A DNA stretch of 64,000 bases from Atopobiaceae bacterium. Lineage in GTDB: Bacteria; Actinomycetota; Coriobacteriia; Coriobacteriales; Atopobiaceae. The notes under the pieces were generated by a model, which had not been told where the DNA came from, did no database searches, and saw nothing but the letters and a program-made list of their open reading frames with translations. The stretch is taken from positions 1 through 64,000 of the forward strand of contig JAFWIE010000033.1 of assembly GCA_017533825.1 (NCBI GenBank), read 5' to 3'. Positions within the stretch are counted from its first letter, which is position 1, and the number at the start of each line of letters is the position of its first letter. Below, one piece after another: positions 14,237 to 42,497 of this stretch. The position numbers were made by a program, and so were the translations under genes.

Positions 14237-15793
14237 CTACTTGCTCATCTTGACGACTTGGGCGCCTGCGGCCACATTACCAAGCGTCGGTTCGATGGAC
14301 TTGTACTCGTCGGAGTTGGTGACGATCACCATGGTAGTCGTGGGCTTGCCGGCCGCTTCGATGCCATCGAGGTCCGCAACCATGAGCAGGTCGCCAGCCT
14401 TTACCTTGTCGCCGGTAGCGCAGCGCGGCGTGAATGGCTTGCCCTCGAGCTCGACCGTGTCGATACCGATGTGGAGGAGAATCTCGGAGCCATCATCACC
14501 GAGCAGTCCGATGGCGTGTCCGGTCGCGGCGAGCATCGTGACGGTGCCCGAGACGGGAGCGTACACGGCGCCGTCGGAGGGCTCGATTGCAACGCCCTTG
14601 CCCATGGCGAGCGAGGCGAAGACGGGGTCAGGCACACCAGTCATGTCCACGGCAATGCCACTCATGGGGGCGGCGAGCGTGTTCGGCGCGTCAACGGCGT
14701 TCACGCGGGTGGGAGCTGCGGCTGCAGCCTCCTTGGCGGCGGCGATGGCCTCCTGCTTGATGCCCTCAGCCTCGGCGGCCTTGTCGACGCCCTGGCGCTT
14801 GCCGACGATCAGGGTGAGCACGAAGGGAACGACAACGGCCACGGCCATGCACAGCGCGTAGGGCAGCATGGACTGGGGCTGCATGGCAAGGATGCCGGGC
14901 AGGCCACCGACGCCGATGGCGTTAGCCGTGCAGGAGAACAGGCAGGAGAGGAAGCCGGCGCACGCGGAGCCGATCATGGCGCACACGAACGGGAAGATGA
15001 ACTTCAGGTTGACGCCGAAGATGGCGGGCTCGGTGACGCCCAGGTAGCAGGAGAGGCACGCGGGGATGTTGACCTGCTCGGCGTTCTCGTCCTTCTTCTG
15101 CAGGACGATCATGGCGAGTACGGCAGAGCCCTGCGCGATGTTGGAGAGGGCAATCATCGGCCACAGCATCGTTCCGCCGTAGTCGGCGATGAGCTGCAGG
15201 TCGATGGCGTTGGTCATGTGGTGCAGGCCGGTAATGACCAGCGGTGCATAGAGACCGCCGAAGATGGCGCCGAAGACAACGCGGAAGTCACCAGTAATGC
15301 CAGCCTGGACGACGGAAGAGACGGCAGTGCCGAGCGCCCAGCCAATGGGGCCGAGCACGAAGTGGGCGGCTATGACGCCAAGAAGGATGGAGCAGAAGGG
15401 CACCAGGATCATCTGGATGATGGTGGGCACTATCTTCTTGAAGAAGCGCTCCAGGTAGTTAAAGGTGATGGCCGCAAGAATGGCGGGGATGACCTGCGCC
15501 TGGTAGCCAACCATGTGAACCTGTGCGAAACCGAAGTCCCAGCTATACTGCGCCCAGGTCTCCTCGGTAGCACCGGCCACGGCATAGGCGTTGAGGAGCT
15601 GGCTCGAGACGAGCGTGAGGCCCATAACGATGCCGAGCATCTCGGTGCCGCCCATCTTGCGCGTGACGGACCAGCAGATGCCCACGGGGATGCCGAGATG
15701 GAAGACAGCCTCACCGATGAGCCACAGGAAGTGGTTGACGCCCGACCAGAACTGGCTCATGGAGGCGAGGGTCGCATTGCCATCGGGCCCGTT
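14237..15793 (-). pseudogene. treB: Trehalose PTS permease treB, 3' part (EIIC-EIIA), cut by transposon
   Basis: This encodes most of EIIC (from SQFWSGVNHFLWLIGEAVF; membrane segments to about NAIGVGGLPGI) and a C-terminal EIIA domain of the glucose type, with the phospho-His motif ILLHIGIDTVEL. EIIB and the first part of EIIC are missing. They lie 14 kb away at 29754-30179 in the same orientation. Reading through the junction from the 3' part gives an unrelated leader (MVRLLGEVGHIRALTIH) from transposon DNA. Joining at the shared AACGG (coding strand) gives ...FGMGNGPDGNATLASMSQFW, in frame. The intact protein would be about 660 residues and import trehalose as trehalose 6-phosphate. Confidence 0.85.
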
Positions 15794-16024
15794 ATGTATG
15801 GTTAACGCACGAATATGTCCAACCTCGCCAAGCAGCCGAACCAAAGCGAAGCAACCCCCTCAACCTGCGAAAACACGCAATTCAACAGAAGAACCAAGCT
15901 CAATCTACCCTCAGGGGCCTCGGATCACAATTTATACAGTGCCGAGCCTGTGATTCCCGGGGTAATTGCGCACATCAGATTGTTGTCTCCCCTACGCGCT
16001 ACCTTGTACCGGTAAGAGAGCAAC

Positions 16025-16038
16025 TGTCTAAACGAACA
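16025..16038 (+). repeat. 14-base inverted motif, left end of transposon
   Basis: TGTCTAAACGAACA lies just upstream of the first recombinase gene. It matches at 13 of 14 positions the complement of 29728-29741 near the right end. It may be a recombinase-binding or autoregulatory site. Confidence 0.4.
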
Positions 16039-16050
16039 GTGAAAGGGTGA

Positions 16051-17379
16051 GTGCGAGTGATTGTCGTACGAGAATCTGCAGACACCACGACGGGCCTGAC
16101 ATACGACCTAACATCAGATGACGGAACGGCTCGCAACGTCCGCACCATGTGCACGACACAAAGGGTCAACGGCGTCAAGACCTTTGTGTTCAGGAACGCC
16201 CGCATGGCGATACTGATGGAACCGTCCTGCTTTCTCACAGATGAGTTCCGATGCGATGCGGAAAACACCGCCAACCAAGCTGTCAGCGCGATCAAGGTGC
16301 TTGAGTGCTTCTGCTCGATCGTAGAGACACCGTTCGCCGCCTTTGATGGCACATATGCGCGGGCGTTCATGCAATTCCTCCGCGGTACGCTGTCCGAGGG
16401 AGTCGACTATAGGTTCGAACTCATTACCAGACGATCCGAAGGAACAGTCGGCGCATACCTTAAGCACATAAGAAAGTACGCCACTTGGCTGCACGCAGAC
16501 AACAGCCCCTTCCTACAATCGAAGACAAAACTGCTGGGACCCACCTACGGTTTCCAAGAATGGCAACCAGAGACGCATCGGCTCAAGGCGGACATCGTCT
16601 CTGCGTCGGAGGCGCCGAGATACATCTCTCTTGACGAGTATCGAAGCATCCTGCGAGTGGTTGACGGAGAGTGGACGATCGAGGAGCGATGCATCATCCG
16701 CCTCATGTTCGAGCACGGCCTTCGCATAGGAGAGGTGCTTGGCCTTACCACTGAGGATCTCAGCTGGACCAAGGCGCGGGACGGGACTCAAAGGTATTCG
16801 GTCATCCTGAGGAACAGGGCGAGCGACAAAGCTGACCAACACGCAAAGATGCTGATGCGAGTGACGAGTCCGGAGCAGTACGGCACCGCCGACTACAAGA
16901 GACGCAACTATGGGTACCAGCAGGTCTACATATCAGAGAACCTGTTCTTCCAGATTGCCGAGTATGCCGAGGGGGCATTTCCAGAGTCGCAGGATACGTC
17001 CTGCTCGAACCTCGCCGACTGCGTTGCGGGTGGCGAGGAGAACCACTACCTGTTCGTGAACACAAAGAGAAGGCCCCTGTCCTCCAACCTCTGGAACAAG
17101 AGGCTCAGAAGGATTATGACGGATGCCGGTGTCCATGTGGACAAGGAGGCCCGCAGGACGAACCTGAACCACAGGTTCAGACACGGGTACGCGATGTTCC
17201 TCACCCACACCGCGAAGAAGAACGGGCAGCCCCTCGACGACTTCACGGTGATGACGCTGATGCGGCACAGGAGCATCGCGTCGACCGAAATCTACCAAAG
17301 GCCCACCCAGGAAGACGTTGCGCGGATGCAGGAGGAAATCATCGGTTCGTTCGAGGGAGAACTGTATGGGAACGGATAG
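16051..17379 (+). CDS. Tyrosine recombinase 1 (TnpA-like)
   Basis: Site-specific recombinase of 442 residues. An N-terminal SAM-like core-binding region (about 80-165) precedes the catalytic domain: Arg in FEHGLRIGEVLGLT (about 230), HRFRHGYAMF (His/Arg pair, about 370), MRHRSIASTEIYQRP (His and nucleophile Tyr, about 410-425). All catalytic residues appear present. Start is GTG 16051 or the GTG two codons later; GAAAGGG lies upstream. The gene overlaps the next by 14 bases, so the recombinases are translationally linked. It is the first gene inside the left end of the element and presumably acts at the ends together with its two partners. Confidence 0.85.
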   Translation: MRVIVVRESADTTTGLTYDLTSDDGTARNVRTMCTTQRVNGVKTFVFRNARMAILMEPSCFLTDEFRCDAENTANQAVSAIKVLECFCSIVETPFAAFDGTYARAFMQFLRGTLSEGVDYRFELITRRSEGTVGAYLKHIRKYATWLHADNSPFLQSKTKLLGPTYGFQEWQPETHRLKADIVSASEAPRYISLDEYRSILRVVDGEWTIEERCIIRLMFEHGLRIGEVLGLTTEDLSWTKARDGTQRYSVILRNRASDKADQHAKMLMRVTSPEQYGTADYKRRNYGYQQVYISENLFFQIAEYAEGAFPESQDTSCSNLADCVAGGEENHYLFVNTKRRPLSSNLWNKRLRRIMTDAGVHVDKEARRTNLNHRFRHGYAMFLTHTAKKNGQPLDDFTVMTLMRHRSIASTEIYQRPTQEDVARMQEEIIGSFEGELYGNG

Positions 17380-19690
17380 CAATGGATTGGCTGATATGGG
17401 ATGGTGGACAGAGAAAACCAGCGAACTAACTCAGCGGGCGTCCAGTCCTCGTGCCAAGCAATTCCTCGAGGCCGTTATGTCGTACGAGTGGGAGCAGGCA
17501 GACGGCGACAAGCGGAGGATAGCATTCAACCGCCTTCTCCCGGACGTTCTCGTTGGACACATCGTCCCGGACTTCTCTGAGGAAGACGTCACTGTCCCGT
17601 GGTTCAGAAACCTCCTCGAAGACCTAGCAGAAGGGGGGGAACACGTGGTGATCAGTGGCTCGTCCCTGCGCCCGAAGGCATCGGAGGCAGTCCGCGACAT
17701 AATCGTTGTTGCCTGCGATCAAGAGTTTCACCCAGGGGACGAGTTCTCCAAGTGGGTTGAGCGCAATAGGGGCGCCCTTGTCACCACGAAGGTCAGGTCT
17801 ATAACGCGACGCCTCGAGGCCATCCTCTCCAAAGACACGATGCCCGGCTTCGAGTTCGTCGTAGAGGATTCGTTCAGAGAAGGGCGGAGGTGTCGCAACA
17901 TCACGGCGATCGAGTTCGATACGGACTCCGTCTTTGTTCGCCGCCTCATCCTCGACGCCCTCAGCACCTCGGTCTTCTCGAAGTCGCTGCGATCCCATAT
18001 ACCGTCCACGAAGGCAACAGCCGCTTTCACCAAGAGCATGGGGTTCGTTCCGACATCGCTTGCCGACTTCACGGTAGAGACGTTCTCCAGGCAGTTCCAC
18101 TATCTCGACAAGGAGGGCAACAAGAACCAGAGGATGATCTCACTGCGGGAACTCGTCTACATCTATGCCCATGTAATCAAGCTCCTGCCAGACGACCAGG
18201 CGCAGTTCACGTACGCGACCGGTCTTACCTTGGAGATGTTGACGAGGAGCGACTTCACCCACCAGTGGAGGGAAGGGTTCAGGGCGTACGTCCACAATCC
18301 GATTGACCCCGTCCCCGACAACCCACGTTGGCTCCTCACTCCAGGGCGGGACGAGCTCGAGCGTACGTGCGCCTCGCCTTGCTCAATGAGGGTGGATGTG
18401 AGCTACAGCGACCCGAATCTGCAGCGAATGCTTGCCACGTGGCTCTGGCAGGAATGCGATCGCGTCGACATTATCCGGGCGATACACCGACGCTTGAGGT
18501 CATTCCTTGATGAGTTGGTCCCAGGGAAAGAGGGCGGTCGCCCGACGGCAACGAACGAGGGGGTGCTGCGATGGCTGAGCGAGGTGAAAGCGGCCTTCAA
18601 TGACAGGGCATTCCGACGCCTCAAAGCCTCCCTGACCTCCTTGCTCGAGTTTGGCGAGGGCAACGGGTTCATAAGCGTCGAGCCGTCCGCATGGATGCTC
18701 ATCTCTACGGTGTCGCCCCGAAAAGACAACGACGCCGATTCAGCCGCTGCGGACCCCGAGCACCTCAAGCTCCTCGCTGCCGAACTCGAAGACCGGTCCC
18801 CTAACTCACTGATAGACGAGTTGGTCTCCTGTGCGTTCGCAGTGGTCGCGCTTACCAAGCTGCGCATTGGGAACATCCTGAGTCTACGGGTTGGCGACCT
18901 CGTCGAAGATGGCCCCAGACACCTGCACTCGGTCCGCGTATCGACGAAGACCGACGGGCACGGATACAAGGAGGTGCAGGTATCCTCAAAGATTTACCAG
19001 CTGCTCAAGGCCGTCGTCGGGATGACGGAGGTGGTCAGGGAGCATGCCACACAAGACTTGAAGGACTACCTCTTCATCTACGAGACGAGGACGTTCGGCT
19101 CGGTCAGACGGCTAAGTCCCCTTCTGTTCCGCACTCGCCTCGTAGACGCATGCGACAAGCTTGGCATTGAGAGGATAACGCCGCGGGACATAAGGCGCAG
19201 GTACCAGACGGAGGTCGTCCTGCGCGGCATCGAACACAACTACAGCAGGCTCGCCCTGAGCAACCTGACCGGGCACTCCTCCCTCGCAACGACTGAGCGC
19301 TACTACGTCCGCGACAACGTTCGGAACTATCTCGAGGCGACATACGGCATCGAGATTGGCACGGCGCCCCTCAGGGGTGAGATTGTGGCGGACGGCGACG
19401 TGGCGTTGGGCATGGAGCTTGGGCCCGAGAAGGCCGTCGAGGCCGGTGCCGGATATTGTCGCAACGAGTCATGCAACATACGGGGGACGGTCTCATGCCT
19501 CATGTGCGAGTCGTTCTTGACGACTCCGAGGTGCATACCCGAGATGGAGGAGGCAATCGAGGGAATCACGCGGCAGATGAGAGACTGCGCCGACTCCCTG
19601 CACGACCGAGATCACCTCCTTGCCGTGAAACGTCTGTATCTCGGCTACCTCGCCGTGATGTACAGCATCAGAGATGGAGGAGAAGAATGA
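17366..19690 (+). CDS. Tyrosine recombinase 2 (TnpB-like, long)
   Basis: A 774-residue recombinase-like protein. ATG 17366 has GAGGGAGA upstream and overlaps the end of the first gene. Catalytic region near residues 500-660: Arg in LTKLRIGNILSLR, then ITPRDIRRRYQTEV where the usual box-II His appears to be Arg, and TGHSSLATTERYYVR with Tyr. The C-terminus has a Cys cluster (CRNESCNIRG...CLMCESF) that looks like a zinc-binding element. It is longer than the roughly 630 residues known for Tn554 TnpB. The altered His suggests a structural or regulatory role, or a tolerated variant; this cannot be decided from the sequence. Confidence 0.75.
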   Translation: MGTDSNGLADMGWWTEKTSELTQRASSPRAKQFLEAVMSYEWEQADGDKRRIAFNRLLPDVLVGHIVPDFSEEDVTVPWFRNLLEDLAEGGEHVVISGSSLRPKASEAVRDIIVVACDQEFHPGDEFSKWVERNRGALVTTKVRSITRRLEAILSKDTMPGFEFVVEDSFREGRRCRNITAIEFDTDSVFVRRLILDALSTSVFSKSLRSHIPSTKATAAFTKSMGFVPTSLADFTVETFSRQFHYLDKEGNKNQRMISLRELVYIYAHVIKLLPDDQAQFTYATGLTLEMLTRSDFTHQWREGFRAYVHNPIDPVPDNPRWLLTPGRDELERTCASPCSMRVDVSYSDPNLQRMLATWLWQECDRVDIIRAIHRRLRSFLDELVPGKEGGRPTATNEGVLRWLSEVKAAFNDRAFRRLKASLTSLLEFGEGNGFISVEPSAWMLISTVSPRKDNDADSAAADPEHLKLLAAELEDRSPNSLIDELVSCAFAVVALTKLRIGNILSLRVGDLVEDGPRHLHSVRVSTKTDGHGYKEVQVSSKIYQLLKAVVGMTEVVREHATQDLKDYLFIYETRTFGSVRRLSPLLFRTRLVDACDKLGIERITPRDIRRRYQTEVVLRGIEHNYSRLALSNLTGHSSLATTERYYVRDNVRNYLEATYGIEIGTAPLRGEIVADGDVALGMELGPEKAVEAGAGYCRNESCNIRGTVSCLMCESFLTTPRCIPEMEEAIEGITRQMRDCADSLHDRDHLLAVKRLYLGYLAVMYSIRDGGEE

Positions 19691-21558
19691 GTGCCGCAGC
19701 CACAGCTGAGAGGGCCGACTGGTGGGGACAGGGGCAGGACGACGCGACGGTCATCCAATTGGCCGCCACACGACTTGATGGCAACGAACTGATTGCCGGG
19801 CTGCGGAGCCACCCGCATCTCGACTTGTCTGCCTTTGAGGTCGACTTCAACTCAAGCACATGGAGGTTCACCTCGTGCGACGGGGCATTCGATGGGCCGA
19901 AGACGCCCGTTGTGAGATTCAAGCCCGATGGAAGCGAGGACATCTGGAAGCTATGGCTTGTATGCCTGACCGTGTGGGAAGGATCGAAGGTCAGAACACA
20001 TATCAAGCACCTCTACGAGGCGCGGAGGGTCTTTAACGCAATCGCCGGAGGAGACGTCCGCCACACGACAATCGACTTGGAGCAGTATTTGGAGCTCTCA
20101 GAGGCGAGGACCAACCTCTCCCGTGGATACAGGTACTCGCAGGCGATTTCACTCTTGAGGTTTCTCGAGTTCAGGCACGCCTTCTTCGGGGTCCCAAACG
20201 ATCCCGAGATGATGAGCAGACTCAGGGATGACGCCAAGCAATACGGTCGGTCGCTCACCTATTCCGTGGGAACCCCCTCGATTGATGACGAGTACCTGGT
20301 TCCCCTTGTGGAGACGTGCCATGAATCCATGGCGGACGAGGACGAGCAGCCCCGATACCGCATAGCGGCAGCGGCCCTTCTCCTTGCCGCCCAGATAGGC
20401 ATGCGCATCTCAGAGGCAAGGACATTGGAGGCAGACAAGCTCGAGATAGCGTCGATGGAGGGAAAGCCAGACATCGCTTTCATCACGTTCAAGACCTACA
20501 AGGGTGCCAGGGGCGATGAGGGCTACAAGACGGTCGAGTCCATCATCAACCCTATTGCGCTGTCCGCCTATCTGTTCCTTGAGGGATACTGCTCGGAGCG
20601 GCGGAAGAGGGTCGGAACGGACGCACTCATCGTGACGCCCGAGCAGAAGGGGTCTTATCCGAGCCAAGGGACCTTCGCGAACCTGATTAAGGAGTTCATC
20701 CTCGTGCACCATGCCACCATCCCGTGCATCGGGACCGAAGACCGTTTCCCGGACATGCAAATCTCCAAAGTTGAAACAGTTGCGAGGAGGGCAAAGAAGA
20801 GGCCGTCCGCAATCGGCCTCACCGGTGACGAAACGCTCGTCTACCCGAAGTTCCACTCGTTTCGCTCTACGGTCGCCACGAAGCTCTACGAATCAGGGGT
20901 GGACATGCGGTACATAAGGAGGCACATGGGGCATATGGACGAAAACACGACGGCTGGCTACATCAGAAGCGACCGGGAGATAGAGCAGCGCAACAATGAC
21001 CTCGTCTACAAGGCAGTCTTCGGCGACGGGGCGGAGTTCATCGGCCCGCACGGCGGCGAGTTCCAGCAAATGATTGCGGAGTATGCGTCGAAACTACCCG
21101 AGAAGGTGAAGGGGGACCTTGACGAGCTTGTCGCCGCCACGTCCAAGGCCTTCCCGCTGCGCAGGAAAGTCGGGGGCGTATGCATTCGCTGTGGGAGGAT
21201 GGCTCCGTGTCCCTCAAACACGGAAACCGACCAGATCTACTGCGCATTCGGCGTCTGCCCCAACCAGTGTGTCCTCTACTTCTTCGCCGACCAGTGCCTC
21301 GAGACCGTGCGCAGCCATATGGAACTCATCCCCATAAACACTTCCAGGGGGCAAATCATGGCCGCTCGCAACGAACTCAGGAAGGCACAGAACATAATCA
21401 GGGACTCCCTCGTCCCCGAGCTCGACTCGCTTGAGAGGCAGCTCGATGCCCACGGGCGGGAGCACATCATCGGACAGTTCCCCGAGCTGGAAGAGCTCAT
21501 AGACACCCTCCCCGAGGTCAGGAAGGAGATAGCGGAATGGCAGGCGATGAGCATATGA
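19687..21558 (+). CDS. Tyrosine recombinase 3 (TnpB-like)
   Basis: A 623-residue protein whose start overlaps the preceding stop (ATGA). Catalytic motifs: AAQIGMRISEARTLE (Arg, about 240), HSFRSTVATKLYESG (His-x-x-Arg, about 395), RRHMGHMDENTTAGYIRSD (His, Tyr, about 415-432). A C-terminal Cys-rich stretch follows (CIRCGRMAPC, then CAFGVCPNQC), with an extended helical tail. Its length is close to Tn554 TnpB. The tight overlaps on both sides place it in one transcript with the other recombinases. It likely forms the active complex with them at the element ends. Confidence 0.85.
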   Translation: MSAAATAERADWWGQGQDDATVIQLAATRLDGNELIAGLRSHPHLDLSAFEVDFNSSTWRFTSCDGAFDGPKTPVVRFKPDGSEDIWKLWLVCLTVWEGSKVRTHIKHLYEARRVFNAIAGGDVRHTTIDLEQYLELSEARTNLSRGYRYSQAISLLRFLEFRHAFFGVPNDPEMMSRLRDDAKQYGRSLTYSVGTPSIDDEYLVPLVETCHESMADEDEQPRYRIAAAALLLAAQIGMRISEARTLEADKLEIASMEGKPDIAFITFKTYKGARGDEGYKTVESIINPIALSAYLFLEGYCSERRKRVGTDALIVTPEQKGSYPSQGTFANLIKEFILVHHATIPCIGTEDRFPDMQISKVETVARRAKKRPSAIGLTGDETLVYPKFHSFRSTVATKLYESGVDMRYIRRHMGHMDENTTAGYIRSDREIEQRNNDLVYKAVFGDGAEFIGPHGGEFQQMIAEYASKLPEKVKGDLDELVAATSKAFPLRRKVGGVCIRCGRMAPCPSNTETDQIYCAFGVCPNQCVLYFFADQCLETVRSHMELIPINTSRGQIMAARNELRKAQNIIRDSLVPELDSLERQLDAHGREHIIGQFPELEELIDTLPEVRKEIAEWQAMSI

Positions 21559-22055
21559 GCGACGAACAAATCGACGAGGTCGACGAGAAGATGCGGGCGA
21601 CCCTCGCCGCGCTCGGCGTGAACCTCGACACCGTCGACGGGCGAACGATGGGCCAACTCAGGAAGGTCGAGCGAGCGATCAGGGACGAGGCGGAGGCTCG
21701 ACGAAGAGCCGAGGAGGAGGTCAGGAGGCACAACCTCTCCGTCTCGTCCGTCGCGAAGGCCAGCGGGGTGAGCCACGCCACGTTCTACAACAAGAGCCTG
21801 CTCAAGCGGTACGTGAACGCCCGCAAAGAGGAGGAAGTGCCAAGGACGCGGGAAGGCAGAGACGTGGCCCTCGAGCGGAGGCTAGAGGAGGCCCAGGCAG
21901 AGATCGCCTTGATGAACGAGCAGGGCGCCCTGATGGTCCAGCTTCAAATAGAGAACGACCGTCTCAAACGTAGGGTCAGGATGCTGGAGGTACAACTGCA
22001 GGGAGGACAGCCCGCAATGGATGGGAAGGGTGAAGTCTTGCTTTTTCCGACCTAA
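21555..22055 (+). CDS. Small coiled-coil transposition protein (TnpC-like)
   Basis: A 166-residue, highly charged protein whose ATG 21555 overlaps the third recombinase stop (ATGA). It has a short DNA-binding-like stretch (NLSVSSVAKASGVSHATFYN, about 62-81, a TnpC/HTH-like pattern) and a long C-terminal coiled coil (about 105-155, ERRLEEAQAEIALMNEQ). In Tn554 the third gene, tnpC, is a small accessory protein that affects orientation and frequency of transposition. Size, order and the coiled coil match that. The assignment rests on context more than on sequence identity. Confidence 0.7.
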   Translation: MSDEQIDEVDEKMRATLAALGVNLDTVDGRTMGQLRKVERAIRDEAEARRRAEEEVRRHNLSVSSVAKASGVSHATFYNKSLLKRYVNARKEEEVPRTREGRDVALERRLEEAQAEIALMNEQGALMVQLQIENDRLKRRVRMLEVQLQGGQPAMDGKGEVLLFPT

Positions 22056-22082
22056 GCATGACGGGAAGGATGTCGCCCCACC

Positions 22083-22121
22083 ACCCAATCTCCCCTCTGG
22101 GTAACGGAGGGGAGATTGGGT
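22083..22121. terminator. Terminator between recombinase and cargo operons
   Basis: Perfect 15-bp stem ACCCAATCTCCCCTC/GAGGGGAGATTGGGT with a 9-base loop, placed between the convergent recombinase operon and restriction operon. It is suited to stop both. Confidence 0.75.
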
Positions 22122-22186
22122 ACTTCATGCCAGTCGAGACGAGTGTCTGATGGTTTTACGGTCAGCGGACTTGTTGGGGCACGACG

Positions 22187-25100
22187 CTAATCTAGCGGTA
22201 TGACGACGGACTCGATGAACGCTATCTCATCAGACGTGATTCCATAACGTTCGTAAAGCATCTGGTCTGTCCACTCATGGTCGTATTCCAAGTCGGGCAC
22301 GAAGGCGTAGACGTCCCGAGGGGCGTGCTGAGTCAGCTTCCTGCATGACACTAGAAGCCTCACCAGACGAGTTCGCAGGTAGGAGGCATAGTTCTTTGCC
22401 TCTTCTTCAGTCTCGAAACGTCCCGCGACGATATAGGTCTCTGAGCATGCGGTTCCTGGGCCAGCAATAATTGGCCGGGAGAGGAACCTCCTTTCAATCG
22501 CTGCACTTGTCCCCTGAACGGCGTTCAGCAGGACTTTCCAATCGTCAATCCATTCGGCATTCATCAGTACCTGTGAGCGCTCAATCCACGTCTCCTTCTG
22601 CGAGCCATAAAACTTCACCGGATTGTCCAGTTTCTCTGGAGAGGTCTGTCCGTGGACATAGGTGCGCAGACCGAATGGCTTGCTGGATGATACGCGGGCG
22701 TCGAGCGTAGGCTCGTTCCTCGCCTGAACTTTCCTGAGAATTGGAACAGCCTCGTTGCGCCTCACCAGCACGTCGAACTCACCGATGTCGCGCTCGACTG
22801 CCTCTCCGACGGGTTTTCCCAGTTCGTAGGTCTGGACGGAACACAGCCCGTCGTGCGCCTTGTCCCACAGGAAGTACGAGATACCACCCCTGATCTTGAC
22901 GTTCGGGAACGGTTCGTAGAGTCGTGGGAAGTCCACTATTCGGCTCATGTGAGAGTCATGAAGCATGGCATCACGATACGCGTCAAGTCCTCTACCGCCG
23001 GTAAACCACCTAGATGGCGTGATCATCGAGATATAATCCGGATCGAGCCTTATTGCGGTCTTCACGAACTCCTGATAGACGGGCATCGCTGAGTTGCCGT
23101 AACCGCCATCCTTCATCTGGTAAGCTGGGTTGCCCACTATAGCGGAGAATTGCATCTCGCTGCCCTCCATTCCCCATAACTCTGGGGTCGCAATCTGTTC
23201 GCAGAACGGTTCTCTGTTAGACTTGAGCGTCCCTATGAGGTCTTCTTCGCAAACGGAACGAGTCGTCTTTTCCGAGTAGCCCACTAGCACCCTACGGGTA
23301 ATCGCCTCAGCCATCTTGGTCATGCACAGCACAAAGACGTTCTCTCCCACCGTGTCGAACCACAGGTCGTTCTTCTCGTCGGTGGATAGCTCTTCCTCCC
23401 TGCTCCCGAGGCGTGCTCTGTAGATGCTGTATGCCGCATAGAGCGGATAGAGTCCCGTCTTTGAGTTCATCTCGAGGATTCGCGCCTTGGCACTTCCCAC
23501 CGTCTTTACGGTAGTCTCCCCTCGATCCACGAACCGGGGTTCATCTCGCAGGTTCTTTTCCTCATGGGGATCGTCGTAGAAGTCCCAGCCTCCGAGACAG
23601 TCGGCGATTTGCATGTTGACCACTCGCCACGGTGTCAGGACGGTTTCTTTGTCGGGGTTCTTGAAGTAGCCGAACAAGGCAGCAATGCTCTTCGTTCTCT
23701 CCGTTGGGTCAAGCGTGTCTGCGTGACGTGCGATATCCCTGATGCGCCTGCCAGCCGCGATGAACACGTCCTCGTCGTAGAAGCGACGGAACTTTGAGAA
23801 CAGTTCCTTGGTAACATCTCTAGGCATGAACTGATTCCAAGAGGCATCGTCCACGAGATCGACGAAGTCGTCGATGGTTAGGTCTGCGCTGATGGGGATG
23901 TCGGCGCCAAAGATGAGGAGGGGCATCCGCACCGAGATGTGCCGCAGGGTTCTTATCGCTTTTTTGCGATTCTCCTTGGCCTTCTTCAGTGCATCTGCGA
24001 GCGCCTGCTCCTCGTCGGAACGATCCTCCCTAGGCTTCCTACTGGCTCTCTTTGCCTGCTCGTATTCCTCCTCTGTGAGTCCCTGCTCGTTGATTGTGAT
24101 CTCGGTGCCCGTTCGCTCGTTTGTCGATTTGCCGATTGTGTCGCTCAGCTCTTTGAATGCGGCGGCATCGCCCTCGTCGAGTCTGAATAACTCGTCTGTG
24201 TACAGGGTCTCGTCCTCGAATCCGCTTTGGACGACGCGATCTGCGTACGCGCTCTTGAGGCGTTGTAACATCTCGGGGACGTCGTACTCAGTCATCATCG
24301 ACCCGGAGAGGCCGATGACGGGGCAGAAGTTCAGGAAGTCTCCGAGCCGTTTGCGTTCGTCGTCGTCGGTGCCACCGGGCTTGGCGGAAACCCTCACCGC
24401 CTCCGCCACCATCTTGAGCGTACGGTCAGGCGCGAAGTCGAACACGTATGCCCGCTCCTTCGCCTTGCCGTCAATCTCGCCGGGCGACTGGACGCGGAAT
24501 ATCGTCTGCATGTAGTTTGCGGCGCTTGTGCTGTACGAGCCAGAGAGCATGAGGACGGCGGACCACTCCTTCACGGTTACGCCTGTGGTGAGGCGCCCAC
24601 ATGAGAGGGTTATTGTGTACCCTCCGACGGCGTTTGCCTTGCTAATGGCGGCCTTGACCTCTTCAAGAGCCTTCTCGGTATCCACCTCCTCGTCACCGGG
24701 CCCAGCAACGTTCACCACATTGAACGCACTCGAGCCGAACACGGGATGCTCCATCATGAGGCTCTTCAGGGCCTTCGCCGCATCGACGCCTGGGACCATC
24801 CAAAGGGAGTGACGGAACATGTCCCGATACCGCTCCGTGGAGTATGGGTAGGACGTGTCAGCGTCCTCTGCGACGAGCAGATTCAGGAACGATCGAATAT
24901 CCCCCTCGTGGACGAAGTCGCCGACCGAAGCCCCTTCTGGCAGAGTTAGACGGTCCTTCTTGATGTCGCCGAGCCATGTCCTGAAGAACTCCCGGAAATT
25001 GAAGGCGACCTCGTCGCCGCCCGAGTAGGATGCAGCATCGAAAACGCTGCCCAAGTCATAGGTGTAGATGGATAGTTCGGGAAGGTCCTCGTAGGGGTTA

Positions 25101-26173
25101 GGCTCACCGAGGTGATTCTTCCACCAGTCCCTCTTATCCCTCTGCTCCATAACGTAGTCCCATGTGTATACCTCGGCCGGGGAGTACTCACCGATGATGT
25201 TGAACGGCGTGCCGGACAGCCTGAGCGTCTTTGTTCGCCCCTCGCCCTCCTTCACGACGCCCGCAATGGCCTTCATTCCGAGTTCCGTCGTCGTGCCCTC
25301 GTGCGCCTCATCGATGATGACAAAATCCCATAGGGTCTTGAACAAAAGCTCGTTCTTGGAGAACCTACCGCCGACTCCCTCTGACTCGCGCGTGTCCTGC
25401 ATGGACGCGAAGTATACGAATGGCTTGTCCCTTCCCACGAGGTCCTCGAGTGAGGTCGTTCTCTTCGAGCCGAACCGATACTCCGTGTCGCCGAAGAAGA
25501 CCTTGTTGAACTCCTCGTGCCAGCTCCCCTCCACGACGGGCCGGTGAGTGAGGATGGCGGTCTTGGCGAACCCCATGCGACGAACAACCTCGAGTGCGGC
25601 GAGCGTCTTCCCGAAGCGCATCTTCGCGTTCCAGAGCATCCTGTCATGGCTGGCCAAACGCGTGCAGGTCATCTCTACGGCAACCTTCTGCTGTGGGTAG
25701 AGATTGACAGGCTTTGCTTTGAACTCTATGTCTACCACACCGGGAAGGCTGAGTTCGTATGCCTTGACGGCGGCGATTGCCTTCTTCGCGGTAGGAAGCC
25801 CGCATTCGTACCATTCACGAGCACCCGTGTCGCCAATCTTGACGTTCTTAACGCCTGAATTGACCAGAACCTCCCGAACGGCGTAGTCCTTGAACCGCTC
25901 GCGAACGACGCTGCCGTCTACGACCCGCTCCCTTACCGCAATCTCTGTGTGGAGCAGTTTGTATGCGATGCCCGCCGTGGTCGTGTACCGCCTGATGCGG
26001 TTGTGCGCCGCCTCGTTCAGCGGCTCGGTGTTCGGTGTAAGCTCGTCCAGAGCAAGGCCGCTGTGGACAGTCGCCTCGCCTATCTTGACGAGTCCCCGGT
26101 GCTCCAAGTCGTTGATCTCAAACACGTAGATGCACTTGTAGCACATCGTATCGGCGAAGGTCATGCTACTCAT
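22187..26173 (-). CDS. GIY-YIG-like / DEAD helicase / Eco57I-type methyltransferase fusion
   Basis: A 1328-residue putative restriction-modification protein. The N-terminus (about 10-35, IYVFEIND...LVKIGEA) resembles GIY-YIG/T5orf172 nuclease domains. A superfamily 2 helicase follows: Walker A-like MRFGKT (about 190), FVIIDEAHEG (about 285) and LRLSGTPF (about 320), with a second helicase lobe to about 570. A central region leads to a methyltransferase part with ILEMNSKTGLYPLYAAYSI and the catalytic-type motif FSAIVGNPAYQ (about 1015), and a C-terminal target-recognition-like region. Its start overlaps the upstream gene stop (ATGA). It probably cuts and methylates foreign DNA, but activities and site are unknown. 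Confidence 0.7.
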   Translation of the reverse strand: MSSMTFADTMCYKCIYVFEINDLEHRGLVKIGEATVHSGLALDELTPNTEPLNEAAHNRIRRYTTTAGIAYKLLHTEIAVRERVVDGSVVRERFKDYAVREVLVNSGVKNVKIGDTGAREWYECGLPTAKKAIAAVKAYELSLPGVVDIEFKAKPVNLYPQQKVAVEMTCTRLASHDRMLWNAKMRFGKTLAALEVVRRMGFAKTAILTHRPVVEGSWHEEFNKVFFGDTEYRFGSKRTTSLEDLVGRDKPFVYFASMQDTRESEGVGGRFSKNELLFKTLWDFVIIDEAHEGTTTELGMKAIAGVVKEGEGRTKTLRLSGTPFNIIGEYSPAEVYTWDYVMEQRDKRDWWKNHLGEPNPYEDLPELSIYTYDLGSVFDAASYSGGDEVAFNFREFFRTWLGDIKKDRLTLPEGASVGDFVHEGDIRSFLNLLVAEDADTSYPYSTERYRDMFRHSLWMVPGVDAAKALKSLMMEHPVFGSSAFNVVNVAGPGDEEVDTEKALEEVKAAISKANAVGGYTITLSCGRLTTGVTVKEWSAVLMLSGSYSTSAANYMQTIFRVQSPGEIDGKAKERAYVFDFAPDRTLKMVAEAVRVSAKPGGTDDDERKRLGDFLNFCPVIGLSGSMMTEYDVPEMLQRLKSAYADRVVQSGFEDETLYTDELFRLDEGDAAAFKELSDTIGKSTNERTGTEITINEQGLTEEEYEQAKRASRKPREDRSDEEQALADALKKAKENRKKAIRTLRHISVRMPLLIFGADIPISADLTIDDFVDLVDDASWNQFMPRDVTKELFSKFRRFYDEDVFIAAGRRIRDIARHADTLDPTERTKSIAALFGYFKNPDKETVLTPWRVVNMQIADCLGGWDFYDDPHEEKNLRDEPRFVDRGETTVKTVGSAKARILEMNSKTGLYPLYAAYSIYRARLGSREEELSTDEKNDLWFDTVGENVFVLCMTKMAEAITRRVLVGYSEKTTRSVCEEDLIGTLKSNREPFCEQIATPELWGMEGSEMQFSAIVGNPAYQMKDGGYGNSAMPVYQEFVKTAIRLDPDYISMITPSRWFTGGRGLDAYRDAMLHDSHMSRIVDFPRLYEPFPNVKIRGGISYFLWDKAHDGLCSVQTYELGKPVGEAVERDIGEFDVLVRRNEAVPILRKVQARNEPTLDARVSSSKPFGLRTYVHGQTSPEKLDNPVKFYGSQKETWIERSQVLMNAEWIDDWKVLLNAVQGTSAAIERRFLSRPIIAGPGTACSETYIVAGRFETEEEAKNYASYLRTRLVRLLVSCRKLTQHAPRDVYAFVPDLEYDHEWTDQMLYERYGITSDEIAFIESVVIPLD

Positions 26174-27138
26174 CTCGGCGTCCTTCCCACGAGCGAAGAG
26201 AAGTCGATTGGTCTACCCTCGTCCCAGTCGTATACTACGCAGGGGACGAGCTCGTAGTTCTTTCCCGTGCTGGAATCGAATGAGTCCCCGAGGTCCAGCT
26301 GGCCCTGGGCCGCAGCGCGGATGGCATACGGTGCGAATCCGGTCAGACCGTCCATTTGCCACACGTTCCAGACGATAATCTCGGCAAACCTCCTTGAATG
26401 CGAAGCGAGGAGCTTCTCGCCGAATTGCCACTCATAGGCGTCCTCGACGGCAGCCAAGACGTTTTCCCGAGCGAGGAGTACGTTATCTCCCTGGTAGTCG
26501 TATGCATAGCAGGACTTGACGGCGCGCTCCGCCCATTCAAGCCACTCTCTTTTGCCGGCAACATTCTCCGAAACGACGCGAAGCTTGCGGTCGAGGAGGC
26601 CCACCCTGTCCGGCACCGATATCTCTTGACCCGTAGACACGTCGTAGCGTGTCGTGATGTAGGGTGCCTCGCCGCACGCAACCTCGAGCACGTTCTTCGT
26701 AACATAATCCCGCCAAGTACGATTACCGTCGAAGATGACGGGAAGCGCACAGGTATCCCAGCTTCTCCTGCGCTCGATGTTGAAGCCGGGATCGCGACCG
26801 AACCAGGCAGCGTCGACGAGGTTGTTCTGAACGTTGCACACCCAGGCGGGCGTGAAGACCTCCGCCCTCGCCCTCGTCCTCTTCTTTTGCTCCTCGGTGG
26901 TCTTTGCCACACGGGGTCGGATGACCTCCGCATGCCCCCCAGTCACGCGTTCGACGGTCAGCTCGTCCGACCTGTCAAACCCCTCCCCGAGCGAGGTGTA
27001 GTCATCGGTGGCCCACCTCAGATTGCCCAGCGTGGCGTGGTCCATAAGGAGAAGCTTGAGCGTGCCAAGGTCCCGGTCTGCGAGTGCCTGCTCCTTGACG
27101 TCGATGGCTTCGGTCACTTCAGGCACTTCTCTACCCAT
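26170..27138 (-). CDS. Methylase-like specificity/M subunit of restriction system
   Basis: A 322-residue protein between a small regulator and the large fusion protein, overlapping both. It contains EVFTPAWVCNVQNN and EVACGEAPYITTRYD, which resemble the S-adenosylmethionine-binding and motif X regions of adenine methyltransferases that work with Eco57I-type or helicase-linked restriction proteins. No NPPY is seen here; the NPAY lies in the partner protein. The two may therefore form one functional methyltransferase. Close overlap (ATGA at 26170-26173) argues for a stable complex. Exact family not recognised. Confidence 0.6.
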   Translation of the reverse strand: MGREVPEVTEAIDVKEQALADRDLGTLKLLLMDHATLGNLRWATDDYTSLGEGFDRSDELTVERVTGGHAEVIRPRVAKTTEEQKKRTRARAEVFTPAWVCNVQNNLVDAAWFGRDPGFNIERRRSWDTCALPVIFDGNRTWRDYVTKNVLEVACGEAPYITTRYDVSTGQEISVPDRVGLLDRKLRVVSENVAGKREWLEWAERAVKSCYAYDYQGDNVLLARENVLAAVEDAYEWQFGEKLLASHSRRFAEIIVWNVWQMDGLTGFAPYAIRAAAQGQLDLGDSFDSSTGKNYELVPCVVYDWDEGRPIDFSSLVGRTPR

Positions 27139-27269
27139 TCGTGGATGAGGGCAGAGACGGTGACGCCCTTGTCGAGGGCGGCCTGCTTCAGAGCCTTCTT
27201 GTCCTCGAAGGTGATGGATATGGTCATAGTCGTACGTTCGGACTTGCCCTTCGTTTCCCTCGTCGGCAT
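27114..27269 (-). CDS. Small ribbon-helix-helix protein
   Basis: A 51-residue protein with a strong ribosome site (GGAGGG, 27274-27279). The sequence TMTISITFEDKKALKQAALD followed by KGVTVSALIHEWVEKCLK is a classic ribbon-helix-helix pattern: a short strand, then two amphipathic helices. It overlaps the start of the methylase-like gene by 25 bases, so it heads that operon and probably represses it. The inverted repeat at 27291-27308, just upstream, is a natural operator candidate. Confidence 0.75.
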   Translation of the reverse strand: MPTRETKGKSERTTMTISITFEDKKALKQAALDKGVTVSALIHEWVEKCLK

Positions 27270-27290
27270 TCGCCCTCCATTACGTAATCA

Positions 27291-27308
27291 ATGAATTAGT
27301 GAATTCAT
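27291..27308. promoter_or_regulatory. Candidate operator of the restriction operon
   Basis: Inverted repeat ATGAATT-AGTG-AATTCAT lies about 22 bases upstream of the ribbon-helix-helix start, in an AT-rich patch. TATGAT on the minus strand overlaps it and may be the -10 box. Binding by the neighbouring regulator is inferred. Confidence 0.45.
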
Positions 27309-27466
27309 CATATCATGGTAGGAGGAAGGCAAGGGGGCTTGTCGACTTGTGACGCACTCTGGATAGTGTCTGACAACGTACGGGCAACAGGCTTCGGTCG
27401 GGATTGGCGCATTGTCCGTCCGTTGGCGTACAATCCCCATTCCGAAACCATCTAGAGGAGGATGAG

Positions 27467-28639
27467 ATGGCAGTGTCCGCAACAGCGCATCAACTAATAA
27501 TCGTTGGGAATGGGTTTGATATCGAGTGCGGACTCAATTCCCAATTCAGCAGCTTCTTCGCCTCGAGATTCAAGGATATTGACAATATCAACGACTACGA
27601 GGAGACAGCGTGGAGCGCGGCAGTTGAAAAAGCTGGGCTGACCGCGTGGGACTTCATACTGAGGAGAAGCTCAGACTCCGATTGGTGCGACATAGAAGAG
27701 GCCATCAAACGATGGGTAGTGACTCCCAGAACCGGCCTTCCCGTGAACGAGCGCGTGCACAAGACGGTGGGTGCCACTAGGAAGTACCCGTTCGCCCGCC
27801 ATCCCTACGCCCTAAGTGGAAATCGCTTAATAAGCGAAGAGAACGACGACGCCTATGTCTACGGCAACGTTTGTAGGCGCATCTGGATGCTGATTGGTCC
27901 TACAAAGGTCGAGTCTTTTGGCCAGAAGGAGCTCTTTCCCATTTTGAGGTCGGAATTGGGGCTTCTTGAAAGGGCCTTCGAAGAGTATCTCCGCAAAGAG
28001 GTGGCGTCAAAACCCGACTACCAGATTAAGTCTAGGGACCTATTCGAGGAGTTGGCCCGCGATGGGTTTCCCAGTCCGAGGCACGGCATTGTCGACACCT
28101 CGGTCCTCACATTCAATTACACTAACCCCTTCACGGACCGGATGGTTGGACCGGGCCTCGACGATGACAACGTGGTGAACATCCACGGCCATCTGAACGG
28201 CGAGATTATATTCGGGATCGACGGGACTGACTGCATGAATGACGACGACGCCCTGCCATTCACGAAGACATATCGCGTCGTGATGGCGGGCAACCAAATC
28301 CGCCAAGTGTTGTCCCATTCGGATTCTGCTGGTGAAGGCGCTCAGACGGATTACGTGAAGTTCTACGGACACTCGCTCGGAAAACCTGACTACTCATACT
28401 TCCAGTCGATATTTGATGGCATCGAGCTGTACGGCGGTCGCACAAGGCTCGTCTTTTATTACAGGCCCTGGCTTGTCGACGGGAGCCTCGTTCCTGAGGA
28501 GGTGGCCAGGACAGGCATGGTGCGGAAAGTGTCGAATCTTCTCAATGCCTATGGCAAGACACTTGACAACAAGGACCACGGAAAGAACCTCATGCACAGA
28601 CTGATGCTCGAGGGCAGACTCGAGGTGAAACGTATCTAG
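27467..28639 (+). CDS. AbiH-like abortive infection protein
   Basis: A 390-residue protein beginning MAVSATAHQLIIVGNGFDIE. The IxGNGFDxxxGLxSxFSxF pattern at the N-terminus is the signature of the AbiH family of phage abortive-infection proteins. A conserved central NYTNPFTD and a late HSLGKPDYSYF also fit that family. ATG 27467 follows AGGAGGATGAG. The stop codon abuts the start of the DUF4238 gene with no gap, so the two are one operon. The mechanism of AbiH is poorly understood. Its place beside a restriction operon inside a transposon supports a phage-defence role. Confidence 0.75.
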   Translation: MAVSATAHQLIIVGNGFDIECGLNSQFSSFFASRFKDIDNINDYEETAWSAAVEKAGLTAWDFILRRSSDSDWCDIEEAIKRWVVTPRTGLPVNERVHKTVGATRKYPFARHPYALSGNRLISEENDDAYVYGNVCRRIWMLIGPTKVESFGQKELFPILRSELGLLERAFEEYLRKEVASKPDYQIKSRDLFEELARDGFPSPRHGIVDTSVLTFNYTNPFTDRMVGPGLDDDNVVNIHGHLNGEIIFGIDGTDCMNDDDALPFTKTYRVVMAGNQIRQVLSHSDSAGEGAQTDYVKFYGHSLGKPDYSYFQSIFDGIELYGGRTRLVFYYRPWLVDGSLVPEEVARTGMVRKVSNLLNAYGKTLDNKDHGKNLMHRLMLEGRLEVKRI

Positions 28640-29662
28640 ATGGATGTCGAAAAGAAGCGAGACAATCACTACGTGCCCCAAGCGTATCTCAGGCAATGGT
28701 CCAACAACGGGAACACCGTTTGGACATATGACACAGTTGTTCGGGACAAGCGTCAAAATGCGTGGAGGTCAAAGAGTGTCAGAGGTGTCGCCCATTGGCT
28801 TGACTTCTACACGCAGGTTTGTGACGACGGTACGATTGATGACTCGATTGAGGTTCTATTCGGGGAGAATTACGAGCTGAAGGCAAGCAACGTCCTCAAG
28901 AAGGTCAGGGAAAACGAAGCATTGACCTCAGAGGACATGTCTGCACTCATAGACTTCGCGATTCTCCAGATGGTACGTACTCCGGCTGCATATCTGAACA
29001 ATCGCACTGCCATGGGACTCGCCTTCTTCTCAGCGGCCAGCAAGACAGCAAACAAGTTTCTTGAGTTGGAGCGCGACCCGAACTTCAACGAGAACACCCC
29101 TGCGCTCGTCGAGGCATTACAGCCAAATTGTCCTCCCTTTCCCCAATGGGAGTTCAGCATAACGATGGACGAATCCACGGGTGACTATACCTACTCTATG
29201 CCCATGGGAAGGAAAAACTATTTGGCGAGTATCGGACATGTACTCAATGGAGAGATGGGGAAGCGCATCCGAAGTTACCGGTGGAACGTGATCAAGATGC
29301 CTGAGGGCACGACGCTCCCAACATGTGACAATCCCTTTGTTAGGGCAGACTTAAGGGGCTTGGACCAAGGCAAGAAAGTACACCACGATTTGTCACAATG
29401 CACAAACTGCTTTATGCCATTAACACCAAAGCACCTGTTGTGCGCAGACTCAGACGCAGATCAACCAATCGCGGCCAGATTGGCAGAAGATGACGAGCTG
29501 TTGGAGCTTGTTAATGCGCTCATTGTTCAAAATGCTTTACGTTACGTGTACGATTGCAAGAGGAGCAGCTGGATTGAGAAGCTTCGGCCTCGTCGTGTTG
29601 ACCCTGAATACTGCAACAGGATGGATGATGCAATGAGGCGTTGGAACGAAATACAAGACTGA
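28640..29662 (+). CDS. DUF4238 protein
   Basis: A 340-residue protein with the DUF4238 hallmark near its start (DNHYVPQAYLRQWSNNGNTV). Later conserved-looking parts are LPTCDNPFVRAD (about 230) and MPLTPKHLLCADSD (about 260), typical of this family in which a promised function is a nuclease- or hydrolase-like role; none is established as far as I know. It starts at the base after the AbiH-like stop codon, so expression is coupled. It is the last cargo gene before the right end. A defence function is inferred from context only. Confidence 0.75.
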   Translation: MDVEKKRDNHYVPQAYLRQWSNNGNTVWTYDTVVRDKRQNAWRSKSVRGVAHWLDFYTQVCDDGTIDDSIEVLFGENYELKASNVLKKVRENEALTSEDMSALIDFAILQMVRTPAAYLNNRTAMGLAFFSAASKTANKFLELERDPNFNENTPALVEALQPNCPPFPQWEFSITMDESTGDYTYSMPMGRKNYLASIGHVLNGEMGKRIRSYRWNVIKMPEGTTLPTCDNPFVRADLRGLDQGKKVHHDLSQCTNCFMPLTPKHLLCADSDADQPIAARLAEDDELLELVNALIVQNALRYVYDCKRSSWIEKLRPRRVDPEYCNRMDDAMRRWNEIQD

Positions 29663-29727
29663 GGTTGTCTAAGTTCTGGGCTGAGTTATTGGTTGGTGGC
29701 TATGGGATACATGGGTGGGCATAGAGG

Positions 29728-29741
29728 TGTTCTTTTAGACA
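29728..29741 (-). repeat. 14-base inverted motif, right end of transposon
   Basis: The minus strand reads TGTCTAAAAGAACA, 13 of 14 identical to 16025-16038. It is 12 bases from the right junction. A partial third copy (TTGTCTAAG) lies on the plus strand at about 29664-29673, so the right end carries an inverted pair. Confidence 0.4.
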
Positions 29742-29753
29742 ATCCTCTCCGTT

Positions 29754-30179
29754 CCCCATACCGAAGTAGGGCATGTCGCCCAAGACGTTGCGGAAGCCAA
29801 GGATCAGACCGCCGGTGATGATGGCGGGAATGAGCGGCGCAAAGACCTCAGCGATGGCGCCCATGGCACGTTGCAGCGGATTGCCCTGCTGGGCGGCGAG
29901 CTTCTTCGCCTCTTCCGTGGAGACGCCTGTGATACCGCTGATGGCGACGAACTCGTCATAGAAGTCGGCGACTTCGTTTCCGATAATCACCTGGAACTGG
30001 CCGGCCTGGGTGAAGCTGCCCTTTGCACTGGGCAACGCCTCGATGGCGGGCACGTCAGCGATGCTGGGATCTACCAGAGTAAAGCGCATGCGGGTAACGC
30101 AGTGCGTTAGGGCAGCGATGTTCTCTTTACCGCCCACCAGACGCAGCATTTCGCGCGCGTCGTTCTCGAACTTTCCCAT
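29754..30179 (-). pseudogene. treB: Trehalose PTS permease treB, 5' part (EIIB + start of EIIC)
   Basis: The N-terminal 144 codons of treB. The EIIB domain has the phospho-Cys motif THCVTRMRF (about 27-35) and the TreB-like KGSFTQAGQFQVIIGNEV. The linker and first membrane helix of EIIC follow (PLIPAIITGGLILGFRNVLG), ending FGMGNG at the transposon edge. Reading on gives 15 foreign residues and a stop. Ribosome site GGAAGGGAAAC precedes ATG 30179. The rest of the gene is at 14237-15793. An EIIB fragment alone cannot transport, so trehalose uptake by this system should be lost unless the element excises. Confidence 0.85.
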
Positions 30180-42300: not shown

Positions 42301-42497
42301 AATCTCCTTCCTCTTCTTCTCTGTGTGTAGTATCATACGCGTAAAGAGTAAATTGTAAAGGGTAAAGTTCAAGAATCTGCCCTCGGAAGAGCACGCGTTT
42401 TGGAAGGCGGCTGATAGAATGCTTTGTGGAATGCTTTGTGTCACAGTTTTCTCAGTTATTACGGTTTTCTTAGTTTTCTCGTCAATGGGAGAGCACT

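Follow-up and report, generated by a model that had tools for sequence, protein, structure and literature searches.

What interrupts treB, the gene for the trehalose transporter, in the genome of an Atopobiaceae bacterium (GenBank assembly GCA_017533825.1), and to which kind of mobile element does the interrupting DNA belong? The window analyzed here is a stretch of 64,000 nucleotides (nt), positions 1 to 64,000 of contig JAFWIE010000033.1, in which genes for tyrosine recombinases and for proteins of defense-associated families stand between two parts of treB. An earlier note on this window had described the arrangement as a Tn554-like transposon with a defense island. The split treB, the recombinases and the cargo families that it reported are upheld by the present analysis, but the position that it gave for the junction is not. 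The interrupting DNA is most probably a Tn554-lineage transposon of the site-specific, tyrosine-recombinase type, to which a third recombinase lends the layout of a GInt and which entered the EIIC portion of treB recently. Direct observation establishes the insertion and its ends, as well as the 6-base-pair (bp) geometry of its borders and the family matches of its proteins.

Two minus-strand frames, 14237-15844 and 29700-30179, match TIGR01992, the model for the EIIBC protein of the trehalose phosphotransferase system (PTS), as adjacent halves of one protein, in agreement with the earlier note. The 5' part of treB (29762..30179, minus strand) encodes EIIB and the start of EIIC, with matches to TIGR01992 positions 2-135 and to PTS_EIIB. 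The 3' part (14237..15789, minus strand) encodes the rest of EIIC and EIIA, with matches to TIGR01992 positions 138-461 and to PTS_EIIA_1, and its left border is set by the empty site of relatives. Rejoined, the two parts form an open frame of 1,971 nt whose sole stop is its own. The genus search covered 16 genomes, the present one included, leaving 15 for comparison. In ten of these 15 (L010-L019) treB spans the insertion site, in one of them (G015) twice (second copy L022), and in all ten the gene is uninterrupted there, so that the search for an intact treB proposed in the note had a positive outcome. Of the remaining genomes, one (G009) has the gene truncated where a contig stops, one (G002) has only a distant homolog at 44% identity, and three gave no match at E <= 1e-100. 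The note had named as contrary to its proposal a split shared by close relatives without the element; none of the ten spanning relatives has such a split. The insertion into treB is real. An assembly artefact or a naturally split transporter could in principle give the same picture in a draft genome of 147 contigs; this is scarcely credible, since both junctions lie within one contig and carry the exact attL/attR pattern described below, and the gene is split in none of the site-spanning relatives. The two treB copies of G015 (G015:C56:41015-42574 and 88699-90258) lie in opposite orientation on one contig and have identical match scores.

The ends of the element were read against the empty site (attB) of the ten relatives, which on the plus strand is GGGCC-CGAAGT-AGGGC. 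The left border reads GGGCC CGTTAT GTATGGTTAACG and the right border CGTTCCCCATAC CGAAGT AGGGC. Accordingly, attL (15779..15807) is composed of the host arm GCCATCGGGCC (15779-15789), an imported spacer CGTTAT (15790-15795) and the left terminal repeat (15796-15807), while attR (29750..29779) is composed of the inverted right terminal repeat (29750-29761), the target's own spacer CGAAGT (29762-29767) and the host arm AGGGCATGTCGC. The element occupies 15796-29761 (13,966 bp) and, with the imported 6-bp spacer, amounts to a net gain of 13,972 bp; comparison of attB, attL and attR reveals no duplicated and no lost target bases. The target spacer varies among relatives, being CAAAGT in L014. The terminal 12-mers, GTATGGTTAACG and GTATGGGGAACG, are imperfect inverted repeats that agree at 10 of 12 positions when placed as the empty site dictates, a match reached by 22 of 200,000 random register pairs within the element; in a looser repeat test allowing offsets near both ends, 18 of 3,000 shuffles did as well. 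The earlier note states that Tn554 inserts without long inverted repeats; in the present element, short 12-bp imperfect repeats are present. Insertion of this type, with a 6-bp footprint and no duplication, is known from Tn554, SEs, and GInts. The G+C content is 0.485 at 29663-29761 vs. 0.570 across the element, a feature examined for comparison with the short AT-rich 3' end of GInts. An 11-letter likeness of the left repeat to the left border of Tn554 was dropped, the best 14-letter inverted matches in the two Tn554 borders (several, at 11/14) lying at non-matching places.

The junction proposed earlier was a cut within a Gly codon at AACGG, with removal of 13,960 bases. It would give the protein sequence FGMGNGPDGN and was rejected because its 12 extra nt are absent from all ten relatives, whose protein at the site is FGP(E/D)(G/H)N (nine read from protein, L013 from DNA). 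At the right end, AACGG consists of the inner portion of the terminal repeat GTATGGGGAACG and one further base, and at the left end of some bases of the imported spacer and a single base of the host; its occurrence at both ends is a chance in-frame match.

Four core genes are encoded on one strand (plus), starting 255 bp inside the left end, with successive overlaps of 8, 1, and 22 bp if the search starts are taken. Three of them encode tyrosine recombinases, as previously reported, all over the cut-off of the Pfam Phage_integrase family (PF00589). IntA (16051..17379; 442 amino acids, aa) is closest to TnpA of Tn554 and is the positional counterpart of GinA. Its catalytic set, R225, H374, R377, H406, and Y415, is invariant in the three members compared, namely the present element, an Enterococcus faecium plasmid copy and an IMG/VR contig (both described below). 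IntB (17366..19690) is an extra long recombinase whose open reading frame is read from an ATG at 17366 (774 aa), with searches run from 17372 (772 aa). Its best hhalign match is TnpB of Tn554, and a Cys-rich motif at its C-terminus resembles that of TnpB. By alignment reading, all three members of IntB keep the R, R, and Y residues but have Arg, Ser, and Asn where the box-II His would be, and in the IMG/VR member the second His is replaced as well. IntC (19687..21558), which by hhalign is the counterpart of Tn554 TnpB, is read from an ATG at 19687 (623 aa) and was searched from 19690 (622 aa). It has the catalytic set R239, H389, R392, H415, and Y424, with Ala in place of H389 in the E. faecium member. 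The fourth gene (21537..22055) encodes D, a TnpC/GinD-like protein of 172 aa that matches DUF6262 at E 0.00069, below the family cut-off. The earlier description of this gene as TnpC-like stands insofar as TnpC is its best hhalign match, but that match is weak. The roles of the four core proteins are putative assignments.

Placement of these proteins made use of two yardsticks, a Tn554-type tnpABC set (L050, E. coli plasmid OL539428) and one E. coli GInt at ssb. The latter was sought among E. coli genomes with an interrupted 3' end of ssb: the ssb query matched 5,375 genomes, 4,925 with one place covering at least 80% of it and 450 without. The two ssb-interrupted genomes that were opened (L073 and L074) carry genes of 415, 512, 677, and 139 aa behind ssb, plus Avs4 and AbiGi; in our judgment the ssb islands are GInts, by layout and site as given in PMC5385486. 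The E. coli GInt (CUPS03) has 7 bp common to both borders, a defense cargo, and the four-gene layout of the present element. L073 and L074, which carry one and the same GInt-like island at ssb, come from strains from Thailand and New Zealand.

In hhalign comparisons the IntA profile matched TnpA at 1.9e-15, followed by a recombinase of this genome at 2.2e-8, with GinA at 8.2e-5. The IntC profile matched TnpB at 6.9e-10 (next, TnpA at 9.1e-5), and the IntB profile also matched TnpB, at 4.1e-5 (next, TnpA at 0.0017). For GinB, GinC, and GinD of the one GInt compared, no E value below 0.05 was obtained with any core profile. Pfam finds no family in E. coli GinC and matches GinB at sub-threshold level only. 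The TnpC of Tn554 is a clear DUF6262 member, over the cut-off that D does not reach. By sequence the core proteins lie closer to Tn554, whereas their genes follow a GInt in number and order. The label "Tn554-like" is therefore apt at the sequence level, with IntA-TnpA and IntC-TnpB above the controls and D-TnpC weak, but not for the gene count, three recombinases being present in place of the canonical two. In Tn554 the two recombinases are adjacent, whereas here an additional one of 772 aa lies between A and C. The targets also differ: the fetched Tn554 copy adjoins a UPF0758 gene and the present element lies in treB. We take the UPF0758 gene to be radC, the usual Tn554 site. Otherwise the Tn554 family shares with the present element TnpA and TnpB homologs in order (A corresponding to TnpA, C to TnpB), a D that weakly resembles TnpC, the lack of target duplication, the 6-bp footprint and imperfect terminal inverted repeats (PMC10214605).

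Could the element instead be a canonical GInt (ginABCD, Tn6571 type) of this clade, its likeness to Tn554 being that of any tyrosine recombinases? We regard this as rather unlikely, although much of its anatomy would suit such an assignment. The gene order is the same, with three recombinases and a small fourth protein encoded in a putative operon at one end of the island and cargo behind it, and the 6-nt staggered exchange is shared (PMC5385486), as are defense genes as cargo, already published for GInts of E. coli (PMC10121019). GInts are stated to resemble each other little, and after circle formation either spacer outcome is described in them, through either-way heteroduplex repair, which fits the reversed spacer position observed here (PMC5385486). 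IntB, moreover, looks degenerate in the relatives. The protein comparisons argue otherwise: IntC and IntB match Tn554 TnpB and D weakly matches TnpC, while none matches E. coli GinB, GinC, or GinD, and GinA, the one Gin protein detectably similar, is no closer than ordinary recombinases (one GInt compared). All three recombinases here exceed the Phage_integrase cut-off, unlike the E. coli GinB and GinC. GinC is reported to have no catalytic motif (PMC10214605), whereas the third recombinase here keeps it. The site differs as well: this insertion is in mid gene, and the places given for GInts are the ends of genes, their starts and the spaces between them (PMC5385486).

Among other groups, SEs share the 6-bp fingerprint or footprint, four core genes, a similar size (SE median 15.7 kb) and imperfect terminal inverted repeats (13-19 bp in SEs), but their gene order is intA-tfp-intB-srap; the comparison is with their description only (PMC10214605). 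SEs are reported to keep the target's 6 bp at attL and to have the imported ones at attR, the integrase-distal end, and the same is told of Tn554-related elements; in the present element the imported spacer is at attL and thus integrase-proximal, where an integrase-distal one would be expected for the Tn554 family (PMC10214605). Actinobacterial transposons related to Tn554 pair a long recombinase with one of normal length and frequently encode a TnpC too, making two recombinases against three here (PMC3414803). RITs, like the present element, have three adjacent recombinases, but the archetype ends in 34-bp terminal repeats and its three coding regions specify recombinases of 315-410 aa (PMC10214605), in contrast to the 442, 772, and 622 aa (as searched) and the fourth gene of the present element. 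RIT-like groups of neighboring tyrosine recombinase matches are found on contigs C76 (six), C30 (four, one on the other strand), C72 (three), and C147 (three) of this same genome. Among the papers listed by the literature searches, mostly open-access ones, neither a three-recombinase Tn554-like element nor the present element in Coriobacteria was found described. Tn554-type proteins with a third recombinase appear to be a new combination in this clade, the kind of element itself being known.

Homologs of IntA, IntB, and IntC occur in 9 of 72,556 plasmid records, all from E. faecium, at 32, 24, and 24% identity, respectively (tblastn). The sole plasmid opened, pBN83-1 (L037), has genes of 449, 855, 625, and 147 aa in a row, flanked on both sides by genes of restriction type; erm(A) lies about 8.4 kb away from IntA. 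The queried 4 kb of E. faecium sequence is held by 9 of 18 matching records, all at 99.9-100% identity, and an empty site that would give the ends of the E. faecium element was not recognized among these 18. The IMG/VR contig (L039) encodes proteins of 464, 871, 648, and 183 aa in the order of the window's core, of which tblastn with the window proteins reaches A, C, and D but not B. Its border is unset: the UvrD-like gene beside IntA comprises C-terminal domains only, and a UvrD-helicase domain was not found in the record. L039 is the one locus with the four-gene layout among ten that the IntA profile found in viral contigs, the other nine being dropped as partial recombinase matches; neither the IntB search nor the IntC profile yielded relatives there (0 each). 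A decayed copy of the core, consisting of the end of IntB, IntC minus its middle and D, is present in Slackia sp. ZJ119 (L035, 10001-14124). Behind this copy lies a gene for a Schlafen group 3 helicase, in which GIY-YIG is matched below the threshold. Genome G341, from the order to which the window belongs, gives the same match as Slackia sp. ZJ119, so that the window falls in the order of Slackia, namely Coriobacteriales in the GTDB sense.

Several points weigh against this account of the element as a Tn554-lineage transposon. IntB of the relatives scores 26.7 bits in E. faecium vs. the Pfam cut-off of 27.1 and has no match in L039, where it was assigned from its position and an alignment at 19%; IntB may thus be a degenerate member of the recombinase trio, as in GInts. 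The D profile matches TnpC weakly (hhalign 0.0034 over 37 columns, next 0.042). The hhalign profiles rest on three sequences (four for D), and the five valid control recombinases out of six are four from this genome and one E. coli phage-type integrase; among the exclusions, L002 and L007 had no chosen frame, and the frame of L008 (664 aa) was not its 458-aa recombinase frame. The attB was read from relatives and not from the pre-insertion allele of this strain, and, if the relatives show the ancestral attB, the imported CGTTAT lies at attL, the integrase-proximal end. IntB is rare in the clade (one of 140 family genomes and two of 396 class genomes), as are IntA (one of 246 class genomes) and the IntC profile (one of 396 phylum genomes), the present genome being counted each time; because of this rarity, the element's own lineage offers no second intact copy to confirm the ends. 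Mobility, too, is a prediction from the assembled sequence, in which no circle or excised allele was seen. Taken together, an IntB below the Pfam cut-off in both relatives and a spacer unlike that of Tn554 slightly lower the standing of a Tn554-lineage transposon and slightly raise that of a GInt.

For a transposon of the Tn554 lineage, a mechanism may be proposed on the basis of the anatomy, PMC5385486 and PMC10214605. IntA, IntB, IntC, and D would bind the 12-bp terminal repeats, and the ends would be joined over a 6-bp spacer to give a circle with an attS of the form repeat-CGTTAT-repeat. The circle would then be crossed with attB through 6-bp staggered cuts, such that the target's 6 bp would be kept at one end and the circle's 6 bp left at the other, with no duplication. 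Excision would restore an in-frame treB, either as wild type or with a 6-bp scar making one change (Phe to Asn). In the border reading both excision spacers keep the frame, giving TAC TTC or TAT AAC before GGG.

How long the element has been in place bears on its consequences for the host. Over the first 572 codons of treB, comparison with the nearest relative (G014) gives non-synonymous (dN) and synonymous (dS) divergences of 0.014 and 0.341, a ratio of 0.041. With L013 and L014 as outgroups, 34 synonymous and 6 non-synonymous changes fall on this branch and 26 and 6 on that of G014; addition of L010 gives 20 and 3 on this branch and 20 and 4 on the other, and outgroups L011 and L012 give 48 and 2 against 43 and 13. 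The treB halves are free of stops and frameshifts, and on this branch they show neither an excess of amino-acid changes nor any other mark of relaxed selection, which suggests that the insertion is young. The earlier description of the insertion as recent is supported by these data. In G014 itself (L019, about 2811-2814) there is a one-base frameshift in the EIIA part of treB, either an assembly error or an independent loss. Purifying selection in the halves and the two in-frame excision products would also be expected had the element been domesticated as a reversible treB switch, with excision turning trehalose uptake on. Such a role is very improbable, as IntB occurs in one of the 16 genus genomes and a recent insertion accounts equally well for intact halves.

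The draft genome has six EIIB-type places, treB included. Two others (one of them only partly seen) fit the sucrose model better than the trehalose model. Among the three of the six places that were classified, the one EIIBC gene fitting the trehalose model is the split one. Trehalose uptake has thus likely been lost, and the element may, as the earlier note proposed, trade trehalose use for phage defense.

The cargo behind the core falls into two groups of genes, and the earlier report of two defense-type operons is sustained by matches to restriction-type, AbiH, and DUF4238 families. On the minus strand, a 1328-aa restriction-type protein (22187..26173) contains a ResIII helicase domain (residues 157-324) and part of an Eco57I-type methylase (944-1087). 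The gene overlaps by 4 bp that of a 322-aa methyltransferase-family protein (26170..27138, minus strand), which matches PADLOC MTase_II (PDLC03390) at E 4e-93 but has no Pfam match at E <= 0.001. The searches identified no nuclease domain in either protein, and for residues 1-191 of the 1328-aa protein Pfam at E <= 1 is empty; a predicted fold of its N-terminal 168 aa was left unused, with a mean pLDDT of 33. Parts of the 1328-aa protein match in 34 of 197 class genomes (the present genome counted), and among the matches listed each covers one part, the element's own copy excepted. Both parts lie near each other in all 11 other loci fetched (L052-L062). The predicted 1328-aa and 322-aa proteins form one restriction-type pair. 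On the plus strand, an AbiH family protein (27467..28639; PF14253 at E 1.3e-19, PADLOC AbiH at E 2.8e-6) is abutted by a DUF4238 protein (28640..29662; PF14022 at E 4e-34, PADLOC DUF4238-Pers at E 1.1e-4). A general AbiH-DUF4238 pair is not claimed, since DUF4238 stands beside AbiH in one of eight other loci (L064-L071, flanks of up to 1.5 kb). DUF4238 matched in three plasmid records. The exceptional locus, L071 (G000:C34:7520-8692), is in this same genome, a second AbiH with an adjacent DUF4238 at 43 and 55% identity to the element's pair. Family resemblance suggests a defense function for the cargo, which would probably benefit or addict the host through a helicase/methyltransferase restriction-type system and AbiH with DUF4238.

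Elsewhere in the window, a minus-strand gene at 41266-42444 encodes an RNA ligase with a PHA02142-type OB fold, and another at 2455-7344 encodes a 1629-aa protein matching DUF285/LRR_5, CAP, and Big_2.

The relationships of Tn554, GInts, SEs, and RITs have been described as still vague (PMC10214605). A tentative reading, to which we give less than even weight, is that a lineage for which no name was found, comprising elements in this clade, on E. faecium plasmids and on an IMG/VR contig, bridges Tn554 and the GInt/SE groups by combining Tn554-type proteins with an extra long recombinase. If so, the ginABCD layout would have arisen by the addition of a recombinase to a Tn554-like trio, and, with the imported spacer integrase-proximal, the opposite of its place in SEs, strand choice would differ between groups. 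Concrete sequences for the question of these relationships are provided by this small family, in which Tn554-like proteins are encoded in the manner of a GInt operon and the hosts differ. A clean set of attB, attL, and attR in a gene whose effect on growth should be simple would make excision, scar formation and strand bias measurable. A putative defense island on a recombinase transposon would, in addition, extend the pattern published for E. coli.

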